A stretch of DNA of 64,000 nt, taken from the NCBI GenBank assembly GCA_900471815.1, contig UICE01000002.1, forward strand, positions 124,001 through 188,000, read 5' to 3'. The notes under the pieces are model-generated. The model had not been told where the DNA came from, searched no databases, and saw only the letters and a list, made by a program, of their open reading frames with translations. Each line of letters begins with the position of its first letter. Position 1 is the stretch's first letter. This DNA is from Hyphomicrobiales bacterium (GTDB lineage: Bacteria; Pseudomonadota; Alphaproteobacteria; Rhizobiales; Rhizobiaceae). Shown here in pieces: positions 43,225 through 45,938 of the stretch. The position numbers and the translations under genes are program-made.

Positions 43225-44655
43225 TCAAAGCTTGGGCACATCGATTGCAAGCATTGTCTTTTTGCGCAGCGGCAAAGCATAGCCGGCCAGCAGTGCGCCG
43301 AGGCCGATAATCGTCGATACGGCGAAAATGATTATCGATGCATGCCGTAAGGCATCGGGCGTCGTTGCGAGCGGATAGCCGACAGCATTTGCAGCCAGTC
43401 CCGCTATGGCGGCCCCAATCGCATAGCCGGCAGATTGCAGGGTTGGCAGCAAGGCAGAAGCTCGATCACGCTCGCCGCTCTTGGCAGCTTCCATCACCGT
43501 TTGGCTGAGGAAGCCCCAGCTTATGCCAAAGCCCGTGCCGATCAATATTTGCCCGAGCATGACCACCAGAGGTTCGTCCAGCGAGAAACCAAAGACGATG
43601 ATCGCAAGACCGCTGACGAGCAGCGTTGGTCCAAGGCGGATCATCCAGGCACGGCGGCGCGGATCCTGAATATTTGCAACAAGAATGGCAAAAAGGCTCC
43701 ATGCAATTGCAAAAGTTGCGCTGAAAGCACCAGCTTTGGTTGGACCATAACCCCAAAGGTTTTGCAGGGTCATAACCAGATAGACCGAGGTGGAAGCTTG
43801 CGCGACCGGCATAAGCAGCACAATCCAAAGGCCAATGCCAACCGTGGAATTGAGCGAAAAGGCATCTGACGGAAAGAGTGGTGTGTCGCTGCGACGATCA
43901 ATTAGGATGACCGAGGCAAGGACTATGGCTGCACCGGCCACGAAAAGCACTTCCATGGGCACGCTCTGCATGATGCTGGCTAACGCAACGAGCATGATAC
44001 CGGCACCGATGGCGGATAGGCGAAAAAATGGTACGCTTAATCGCTGTATCTCGCCGGAAAAGCGCGGAACGATGCGGAATGTCAATGCGATGAAGATCAG
44101 CCCCAAGGGAACATTGATGAGGAAGGCTGCGCGCCACGAAAGATGCTCGGTCAGCATGCCGGACACCAACGGACCACCGAATGCCGCAATAGCCCAAACG
44201 ACCGCTTCAGCACCAAACACTTTGGCGACAAGCCGGGACGGAAAGAGTTCCGGGATCAGCGCGTAACAGGTGGCAGCAATAATGCCCTCGCCTACGCCCT
44301 GAAGGGCCCGGCCTATCAGGACTTCGGTCATGGATGAGGCAAAGGCCGCAATCAATGTACCAGCCAAAAATACCAGGGCCGAACCGACAAGCGCGGTACG
44401 AGAGCCGAAGCGGGCTTTCAGCAAGGCACCGCTGGCGCCGCCGACAATAGAAAACACCAGATAAAGGGTAAATGCCCAGGATATCAGCTCAATACCGCCA
44501 ATTTCGCCCACGGCAGTGGGAAGCGATGTCGACACCAGAAAACCGTTAAAGGCGAAAAGGGCAACGCCCAGACAAAGTGTCGTTGTGGCTGCCGAATAGT
44601 CGGCGGTTAGCAGTTCCGACCAGCGGGCATCGCTGGGTTGAGCATGGTCACTCAT
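43225..44655 (-). CDS. MFS exporter, DHA2-like (multidrug)
   Basis: A 476-residue major facilitator with about fourteen hydrophobic segments, as in the EmrB/QacA (DHA2) group. Motif A-like GALLKARFGSRTAL lies at about 76-89. The GRALQGVGEGIIAATCYALIPELF segment near 114-137 and motif C GGPLVSGMLTEHLSWRAAFLINVPLG near 160-185 are strong matches to drug:H+ antiporters. The likely role is efflux of toxic compounds. It is divergent from a transcription factor across 93 bp containing an inverted repeat, suggesting local regulation. Confidence 0.9.
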   Translation of the reverse strand: MSDHAQPSDARWSELLTADYSAATTTLCLGVALFAFNGFLVSTSLPTAVGEIGGIELISWAFTLYLVFSIVGGASGALLKARFGSRTALVGSALVFLAGTLIAAFASSMTEVLIGRALQGVGEGIIAATCYALIPELFPSRLVAKVFGAEAVVWAIAAFGGPLVSGMLTEHLSWRAAFLINVPLGLIFIALTFRIVPRFSGEIQRLSVPFFRLSAIGAGIMLVALASIMQSVPMEVLFVAGAAIVLASVILIDRRSDTPLFPSDAFSLNSTVGIGLWIVLLMPVAQASTSVYLVMTLQNLWGYGPTKAGAFSATFAIAWSLFAILVANIQDPRRRAWMIRLGPTLLVSGLAIIVFGFSLDEPLVVMLGQILIGTGFGISWGFLSQTVMEAAKSGERDRASALLPTLQSAGYAIGAAIAGLAANAVGYPLATTPDALRHASIIIFAVSTIIGLGALLAGYALPLRKKTMLAIDVPKL

Positions 44656-44676
44656 GGCATTTCCTCAATTTAATTA

Positions 44677-44708
44677 GTTTTATGTTTTTATATTCCGCTT
44701 TATAAAAC
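44677..44708. promoter_or_regulatory. candidate operator between MFS exporter and regulator genes
   Basis: The inverted repeat GTTTTAT (44677-44683) and ATAAAAC (44702-44708), seven of seven bases, with an 18-bp spacer. It is centred in the 93-bp AT-rich divergent promoter region. Position and symmetry suit a dimeric winged-helix regulator; this is an inference. Confidence 0.45.
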
Positions 44709-44748
44709 AAGCAATAGCTTTTTTAATTTTTATGCCTATATTGGCACC

Positions 44749-45408
44749 ATGCAGGATCGCACGACAAATCGCATGCTATATTCCTTGAAAGTGACCGGGG
44801 CTCAAACAGCTGCGGCATTAGCGGAACGTCTGGATATTACCGCGGTGGCTGTTCGCCAGATGCTGGGGCGACTGCATGAAGCCGGCCTTGTCGATTATGA
44901 AGACAGCCGTGAGAGCGTGGGAAGACCCAAGAGGTTTTGGCATTTGACTGAGGCAGGAAACGCCCAGTTTCCGGATAATCATGCCGGGTTAACCAGAGAT
45001 CTCATCGCTTCAATCTCTGCGGTTTTCGGGGAGTCCGGACTGGATCAACTGATTTCTCATCGCGAACAGGCGACGCTTAATCAATATCAGCTTGCACTTG
45101 AACCAATTGAGACCCTTGAAGCCAAGGTGGAACAGCTTGCAGCCATTCGCTCGGCGGAAGGATATATGGCAACCAGCACCCGCAACGCAGAAGGCAAGCT
45201 CGTCCTTGTCGAGAATCATTGCCCTATTTGTGTTGCTGCACAGGCCTGTCAAAAACTCTGCCGCTCCGAGCTTGAAGTGTTTCAAGCAGCACTTGGGCCT
45301 GATGTTGAAGTTACACGTTTCGAGCACATCCTCAAAGGTGCGCGGCGTTGTGCTTATACAATTGCAGCAAGGCCACAACAAAGCGATCAGCTTGCGATGA
45401 AGCTGTAG
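44749..45408 (+). CDS. winged-helix transcriptional regulator with SufR-like cysteine cluster
   Basis: A 219-residue regulator. The N-terminal helix-turn-helix (about residues 10-62, TGAQTAAALAERLDITAVAVRQMLGRLHEAGLV, then a wing) is of the ArsR/DeoR-like COG2345 type. The C-terminal part has four or more conserved-looking cysteines: HCPIC, AQACQKLC and ARRCAY. In SufR and relatives such cysteines hold an Fe-S cluster that senses iron or redox state. The targets may be the divergent MFS exporter and itself. The 3' end overlaps the convergent GNAT gene by 22 bp. Confidence 0.87.
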   Translation: MQDRTTNRMLYSLKVTGAQTAAALAERLDITAVAVRQMLGRLHEAGLVDYEDSRESVGRPKRFWHLTEAGNAQFPDNHAGLTRDLIASISAVFGESGLDQLISHREQATLNQYQLALEPIETLEAKVEQLAAIRSAEGYMATSTRNAEGKLVLVENHCPICVAAQACQKLCRSELEVFQAALGPDVEVTRFEHILKGARRCAYTIAARPQQSDQLAMKL

Positions 45409-45938
45409 ACCATCGGACTGATGAAACGATCCCCTACCCGCCAATAATCGCGAAGGGGTCCGCCTTCGAGTGCAAAGCCCAGTCTCGCCGCCAATCGGAT
45501 TGAAGGTGCATTATCCGGATGGATAATCGCCGCAATGCGCCGCGTTTTCAGCTCATCAATGCAGTGGGTCATGATTTTTCGGACAGCCTCCGTCATCAGG
45601 CCTTGGCCGTGATATTCGGCCCGAAGAATATAGCCAATCTCAAGCTTGCGGCTGTAGGCTTCGCGATGGTGATAATTGACCATTCCGATACATTCATCTG
45701 TCTTGATATCGGCCACGGCCCAAGCAATGGCTGTTTCCGGCTGGGCTCCCTTCGCAAGAGCCCTTACCCAGCCCCGCGTTTCCTGGATATTCCTACAAGG
45801 CGCGAAATCCCAATATTGCACCAACTCCTGATTGCCGAGGCAAGCATGGAGACCCTTATCGTCCTTCGGCTCAAACTGACGCAAGCGCAATCTTTGCGTG
45901 ACCATAACAGGAAATTTTGTGGCCTGACTGGCCATCAT
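45387..45938 (-). CDS. GNAT-family N-acetyltransferase (RimJ/RimL-like)
   Basis: A 183-residue acetyltransferase of the RimJ/RimL type. TQRLRLRQFEPKDD begins the fold. The acetyl-CoA loop is IGYILRAEYHGQGLMTEAVRKIM (Q/R-x-x-G-x-G/A), and HPDNAPSIRLAARLGFALEG near the C-terminus is typical. Targets may be protein N-termini or small molecules. The start is one of two adjacent ATGs (45938, 45935) overlapping the stop of the upstream gene (ATGA), so translation is probably coupled. A longer frame to 46058 runs inside the neighbour. Confidence 0.88.
   Translation of the reverse strand: MMASQATKFPVMVTQRLRLRQFEPKDDKGLHACLGNQELVQYWDFAPCRNIQETRGWVRALAKGAQPETAIAWAVADIKTDECIGMVNYHHREAYSRKLEIGYILRAEYHGQGLMTEAVRKIMTHCIDELKTRRIAAIIHPDNAPSIRLAARLGFALEGGPLRDYWRVGDRFISPMVYSFIAS

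Follow-up and report, generated by a model that had tools for sequence, protein, structure and literature searches.

Introduction

SufR has been described in Cyanobacteria and, as Rv1460, in Actinobacteria. Its gene adjoins suf genes and, in cyanobacteria, is divergent from its target. One published account presents SufR as a repressor, with the cysteine motif C-X12-C-X13-C-X14-C (PMC8593673), and this account and a second one (PMC8593673, PMC13421787) give CAAC-N6-GTTG as the SufR site and describe responses to iron limitation and oxidative stress. In Mycobacterium tuberculosis SufR, C203, C216 and C244 are needed for function (PMC6034842). The ligands of Synechocystis SufR are given as C164, C171 and C206 (PMC13421787). 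Reviews disagree on the ligands of SufR.

Other described systems resemble the locus studied here in layout or in target. MarR, MepR and MexR are repressors of efflux pumps that are not known to have a C-terminal cysteine domain. SoxR is a MerR-type regulator with a [2Fe-2S] cluster. In Stenotrophomonas maltophilia, SoxR regulates a divergent MFS gene for paraquat, mfsA, whose product has 14 helices (PMC4411124). This system shows a redox sensor at work in a divergent MFS layout.

Here, we describe a SufR-like regulator encoded divergently from an MFS exporter in a 64,000-nucleotide stretch of DNA ("the window"; contig UICE01000002.1). The window comes most likely from Phyllobacterium, since the closest named relatives of the regulator, at 93% and 81–74% identity, belong to that genus.

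Results

The regulator gene and its neighbours

The regulator gene (44749–45408, + strand) encodes a SufR-like winged-helix protein of 219 aa with cysteines at C158, C161, C167, C171 and C201. An initial annotation of this DNA had reported a winged-helix protein with the segments HCPIC, QACQKLC and RRCAY, back to back with an MFS exporter gene, and both the reading frame and its divergent neighbour are as it described. The interval that it gave for the feature, 44656–45408, has the right end; its start is the first intergenic base. The exporter gene (43225–44655, − strand) encodes a DHA2-like protein of 476 aa, and the gap between the two divergent genes is 93 bp. Pfam recognizes MFS_1 in the exporter (111.5 bits; cut-off 33.4) and also Sugar_tr. 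Its best NCBIfam hit is TIGR00711, the model of EmrB-like DHA2 proteins, at 112.2 bits, short of the cut-off of 230.2. In a check for 14 membrane helices, crude hydropathy gives 11 segments, some of them long.

On the other side of the regulator, a convergent GNAT acetyltransferase gene (45390–45938, − strand), probably a bystander, extends into the 3' end of the regulator gene. The neighbours of the regulator in the window are thus the MFS gene, the GNAT gene and, by eye, an ABC-F-like gene; no suf gene was identified there, and the locus differs in this respect from those of SufR.

A sister branch of SufR

Only DNA-binding winged-helix families exceeded their cut-offs in a Pfam scan of the regulator. 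Its top NCBIfam match is the SufR model TIGR02702, and the homology is near full length, with regulator residues 6–205 aligned to model positions 3–208 of 208, which agrees with the SufR-like character proposed in the initial annotation. However, the score of 109.3 bits falls short of the SufR equivalog threshold of 178.8 bits. Cyanobacterial SufR proteins score 283–335 bits on the same model (n = 23; a set taken from the relatives of one cyanobacterium in which a second type occurs as well), and the second cyanobacterial type scores 69–142 bits, the lowest values including two partial matches. Many of these cyanobacterial genomes hold both SufR and the second paralogue. In a tree of 134 rows, made by a quick method and including some long branches, a branch with an SH-aLRT value of 100 separates all 23 SufR proteins from the regulator. 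On the basis of this split and of the cysteine pattern described below, the regulator is, by sequence, a member of a sister branch of SufR and not SufR itself. We take the wider SufR-like branch to be COG2345-type. The window genome has one copy of the regulator.

In a joint alignment, C158, C171 and C201 coincide with cysteines that are invariant in 23/23 SufR proteins. At the positions of C161 and C167, SufR has S/A and F/Y, respectively. The remaining SufR cysteine corresponds to V186 in the regulator, and this position is a cysteine in 28 of the 140 non-SufR rows, which include one locus twice (L067). Hence, the first, second and fourth cysteines of the published SufR motif are present in the regulator and the third is V186. 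Judged by spacing, we read C203, C216 and C244 of M. tuberculosis SufR as the probable equivalents of C158, C171 and C201: C-x12-C is found in both proteins, followed by 29 residues in the regulator and 27 in M. tuberculosis SufR. The regulator has all five cysteines by which we define the branch, namely the three shared with SufR and the additional C161 and C167. Since the third SufR cysteine is mostly absent from the branch and two cysteines are new, the ligand set of any cluster must differ from that of SufR.

The initial annotation would have been contradicted by a lack of cysteine conservation in orthologues. In our phylum sample, collected by profile (E 1e-20 or better), C158, C171 and C201 are each present in 40/40 sequences, C167 in 39/40 and C161 in 37/40. 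The 80 named loci were retrieved by a pattern containing HCPI, so that C158 is conserved there partly by construction. Seven named Phyllobacterium loci (L022–L026, L029, L030), together with L020 and L021, were excluded from the cysteine, operator and neighbour groups.

Two operators in the intergenic region

We searched for palindromic motifs, from random starts, in 66 non-redundant upstream regions of other genera; the training set left out Phyllobacterium and every regulator at least 70% identical to that of the window. The resulting motif, aTTTatAAAG.AATT.CTTTatAAAt, was found de novo, with the best 15 of 60 starts converging on one score, and it scored 432 compared with 49–61 for eight dinucleotide-shuffled sets. 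An unconstrained search also returned a palindrome (r = 0.97 against its own reverse complement).

A scan with this held-out matrix marks two operators between the genes. The stronger, O2 (44702–44727; ATAAAACAAG-CAATAG-CTTTTTTAAT), scores 23.9 bits and has its centre 34 bp 5' of the regulator ATG. The other, O1 (44668–44693; ATTTAATTAGTTTTATGTTTTTATAT), scores 13.7 bits and lies 34 bp from O2, centre to centre. Both are marked in 19/19 held-out Phyllobacterium gaps. O2 scores 21.0–24.6 bits there and is centred 34–35 bp 5' of the ATG; O1 ranges from 13.7 bits, its score in the window, up to 22.1 bits in other species. The spacing between them is 34 bp in 18 species and 33 bp in one. Mean column identity across Phyllobacterium is 0.915 in O1 and 0.96 in O2, compared with 0.73 between the sites and 0.74–0.86 outside them.

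The initial annotation had instead pointed to a perfect 7+7 inverted repeat, GTTTTAT-N18-ATAAAAC, and proposed looking for it before orthologous pairs. The repeat exists (44677–44708), once in the window and in none of 100 shuffles. It straddles the operators, joining the middle of O1 to the outer edge of O2, and its arms are exact and perfectly complementary in only 7/19 Phyllobacterium species. We reject it as the operator, the conserved elements being O1 and O2.

Sites above 10 bits were also frequent outside Phyllobacterium, in counts that include the training set: they occur at 46/53 non-operonic named loci and at 33/38 phylum loci (5/38 lack one), compared with 46/702 starts of control genes and with 1.4% of background windows (n = 6325). 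Among second cyanobacterial paralogues, 4/8 have such a site and 4/8 do not. True SufR genes, 18/23 of which have one, are a positive control for the matrix: the sites listed for them are mostly CAAC-N6-GTTG, though the matrix was built without SufR. The operators of the branch are like that of SufR in being palindromes with a 6-bp centre, but their core is AAG-N6-CTT. The location of the operator varies across loci, between about −128 and +10 as counted from the start of the regulator.

In the window genome, O2 is the sole exact match to the operator pattern. With one mismatch allowed, there are 6 places compared with 7 for a reversed control; by this blunt test, no wide regulon was seen. Since these matches do not exceed the control, the regulator looks dedicated to the regulator/MFS pair in this genome. 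The search covered 19/20 genomes of the genus, its outcome for the later genomes referring to the matches listed.

A likely −10 box for the regulator, TATATT (44737–44742, + strand), stands exactly 6 nt before the ATG, and TAnnnT-N6-ATG is found at the regulator start in 19/19 Phyllobacterium species. Because of this spacing, the regulator mRNA is predicted to be leaderless. For the exporter, a likely promoter on the − strand (44687–44714) consists of TTGCTT (44714–44709) and TATAAA (44692–44687), 16 nt apart, within O2 and O1. Since it was read by eye, and a consensus promoter scan returned no site for either the regulator or the MFS gene, we regard it as a candidate. O2 likely lies over the −35 region of both genes, and O1 over the −10 of the exporter, so that the two predicted operators would between them cover the likely promoters of both genes.

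Distribution and gene neighbourhood

The regulator is present in 19/20 Phyllobacterium genomes, that of the window included, and a divergent MFS gene adjoins it in 19/19 of these. The GNAT gene is kept on the other side, also in 19/19. The gene order within the genus therefore reflects general synteny, and only linkage across families is strong evidence. In a sample of relatives, 0/15 genomes from the family's other genera and 2/24 from the remaining families of the order gave a match to the regulator. When Pseudomonadota were sampled more widely, 41/397 genomes had it (E 1e-20 or better; own genome included), at one copy each, and these include other genera of the window's family.

Outside Phyllobacterium, the upstream (−1) neighbour is an MFS gene at 47/107 loci and a superoxide dismutase gene at 7/107 (genes of at least 150 aa), compared with 3/461 and 0/461 in a far-gene control, in which unlike MFS proteins go uncounted as the MFS labels were seeded from neighbours. 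Some MFS genes were missed by the gene caller (L053, L066, L089). The 40-locus phylum sample has a divergent MFS gene at 12 loci, an MFS gene in an operon with the regulator at 1, an adjoining superoxide dismutase gene at 2 and no labelled neighbour at 12. Thus, the gene pair, whose loss among orthologues would have spoken against the initial annotation, is kept throughout the genus wherever the regulator is present, and in part beyond it.

Further annotated neighbours are FMN reductase, Rieske proteins, LPG synthase, the cis/trans isomerase CTI, an EamA transporter, an ABC ATPase, glpX and a SIMPL protein. Many neighbours, such as glpX, LPG synthase and SIMPL, have no clear redox role, and others are unannotated. 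Fe/Mn superoxide dismutase genes are divergent from relatives of the regulator at L039, L042, L043, L080, L093, L096 and L147. In Chelativorans and Nitratireductor (L044, L052, L055, L065, L081), the divergent gene is phosphatidylglycerol lysyltransferase-like, and at L170, L173, L174 and L050, where operators lie between the two genes, it encodes a Rieske-domain protein.

In 21/21 betaproteobacterial named loci, the MFS gene is directly upstream of the regulator and co-directional with it, and in 21/21 a site above 10 bits (12.5–22.0) lies 10–64 bp before the MFS start. Where the regulator is directly behind a co-directional gene, such a site stands before the regulator itself in 2/21 loci. 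In Brucella/Ochrobactrum (L039, L040, L042, L043), sites are found before the regulator, with superoxide dismutase divergent in three, and again before a separate downstream MFS gene; the latter are 106–245 bp before the called MFS start in three, and the site in L039 was assigned to another frame. The motif goes with the exporter, not with the regulator alone.

One Phyllobacterium genome (G005; locus L230) gave no match to the regulator. It keeps the MFS gene, at 82% identity, directly behind a co-directional GNAT gene, and no operator above 9 bits was found in the 6-kb stretch around it. This genome represents a natural deletion, in which the regulator and operators were lost together and the exporter was retained.

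Discussion

The initial annotation proposed that the regulator controls an efflux pump instead of Fe-S assembly. This is well supported by the sequence analysis, because of the SufR-like sequence, the conserved cysteines, the linkage to exporters and the shared operators. The neighbours of the branch, exporters and superoxide dismutase, also differ from the suf neighbours of SufR.

What might the regulator sense, and how? By analogy with SufR, in which the holo form represses and reduction, damage or loss of the cluster releases, we think it probable that the regulator, as an Fe-S protein of the SufR type, represses both the exporter and itself and that damage to the cluster relieves this repression. 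Presumably as a homodimer, it would bind O2 and O1 and so close two promoters, the leaderless one of its own gene and the divergent one of the MFS gene. Since O2 lies over the likely −35 of both genes, binding there should silence both, and O1 should silence the exporter further. The holo protein is expected to hold a [4Fe-4S] cluster on C158, C171 and C201 plus C161 and/or C167. Oxidants, redox-cycling compounds or a failing Fe-S supply may damage or empty this cluster; DNA binding would then weaken, and the regulator would be made together with the exporter.

An alternative explanation is that the regulator is a drug- or metabolite-sensing repressor, with a C-terminal domain that binds the exporter substrate and cysteines that hold structural zinc, in the manner of MarR-type pump repressors or V4R-type aromatic sensors. 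Sequence searches of the PDB matched only the N-terminal part of the protein, to about residue 124. The AlphaFold model (mean pLDDT 84.8, pTM 0.60) comprises a winged helix (about residues 1–75) and a long helix (77–117), followed at the C-terminus by an alpha/beta domain in which the cysteines lie. Residues 1–120 of the model align with the pump repressors MarR, MepR and MexR (Z 11.7–13.3), which suggests the same winged-helix fold. The efflux target is also alike; unlike these repressors, the regulator has a C-terminal cysteine domain. When this part is modelled alone (pLDDT 80.7), VIA-align matches it over 82–101 residues to TRAPP subunits, H-NOX domains, BcsD and the MopR aromatic sensor (Z 5.4–8.5), with a TRAPP subunit at the top (Z 8.5) followed by guanylate cyclases. 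V4R-type aromatic sensors contain zinc, five cysteines would suit zinc, and MFS is the commonest neighbour of the branch. However, the fold match is weak, given that Z values as high as 6.7 were also obtained with designed proteins, and Foldseek alone returned no match under 0.001 for the C-terminal domain. Furthermore, the three SufR cysteine positions are invariant, and the operator is shared with some superoxide dismutase and FMN reductase neighbours, which argues for a redox signal rather than one substrate. We consider substrate sensing unlikely, although the fold matches, modest as they are, leave a small-ligand or zinc sensor as the chief rival.

Alternatively, the signal could be iron shortage rather than oxidants, making the regulator a sensor of iron or Fe-S supply and the exporter a carrier of a siderophore or chelator. 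The response of SufR to iron limitation as well as to oxidative stress is consistent with this. However, none of 37 scanned neighbour proteins belongs to a siderophore or named iron-uptake family (one is an ABC ATPase without known substrate), and superoxide dismutase and flavin reductase do occur as neighbours. We regard this explanation as improbable. More doubtful still is a SoxR-like activator that binds O2 and switches the exporter on when oxidised. S. maltophilia SoxR activates its divergent MFS gene in the same layout, and O2, near −34 of both predicted start sites, is where an activator could bind too; yet operators ranging from about −128 to +10 of the regulator start suit a repressor, and SufR is a repressor. 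Finally, a thiol or soft-metal sensor (a disulfide switch of the ArsR/SmtB type), as the public annotation "metalloregulator ArsR/SmtB" implies, is very unlikely: the ArsR/SmtB model NF033788, which has a cut-off of 55 bits, scores no more than 19.3 bits, and does so over residues 3–51 alone, in the DNA-binding part.

The SufR-type Fe-S repressor thus remains our preferred reading, and in it the locus is like SoxR-mfsA in having a regulator, here presumed to be redox-sensing, divergent from an MFS exporter; SoxR itself is an activator from another protein family. The SoxR model found no match above its cut-off in the window genome (best 55.7 compared with 116.9 bits). Nonetheless, we reject the idea that the branch stands in for SoxR: SoxR is above the cut-off in 21/40 genomes with the branch and in 11/20 without it, the latter a small and uneven control taken from among the matches listed.

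Literature searches returned no description of a five-cysteine SufR-like branch among the matches listed. The branch is apparently undescribed so far and has its own type of DNA-binding site. We tentatively suggest, as a possibility that goes beyond the single locus, that this widespread sister branch of SufR is a SoxR-independent control system for redox and xenobiotic defence in Pseudomonadota: a five-cysteine Fe-S repressor with a V4R/H-NOX-like sensor domain and one shared operator for exporters, superoxide dismutase and flavin/Rieske enzymes, travelling as an exporter-plus-switch cassette that is also found on conjugative plasmids. A defined operator and frequent exporter or redox neighbours point to a possible means of coupling Fe-S sensing to efflux that does not involve SoxR; the operator also provides a handle for seeking other targets of the branch.

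Relatives of the regulator also occur on plasmids, whose records either leave them unnamed or give only a generic name (metalloregulator, transcriptional regulator or MarR protein). On a Comamonas testosteroni plasmid (L229), the relative lies between a TolC-family gene and genes for an RND multidrug pump, and no operator above 13 bits was found at that locus. The same MFS protein (WP_105667421.1), with the regulator divergent from it, is encoded on two plasmids typed as conjugative, from Klebsiella pneumoniae (L227) and E. coli (L228). Two operators, at 17.2 and 25.0 bits, accompany the pair; one lies between the genes, the other where the regulator is annotated to start. An IS element, ISApl1, splits the regulator gene on the E. 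coli plasmid.
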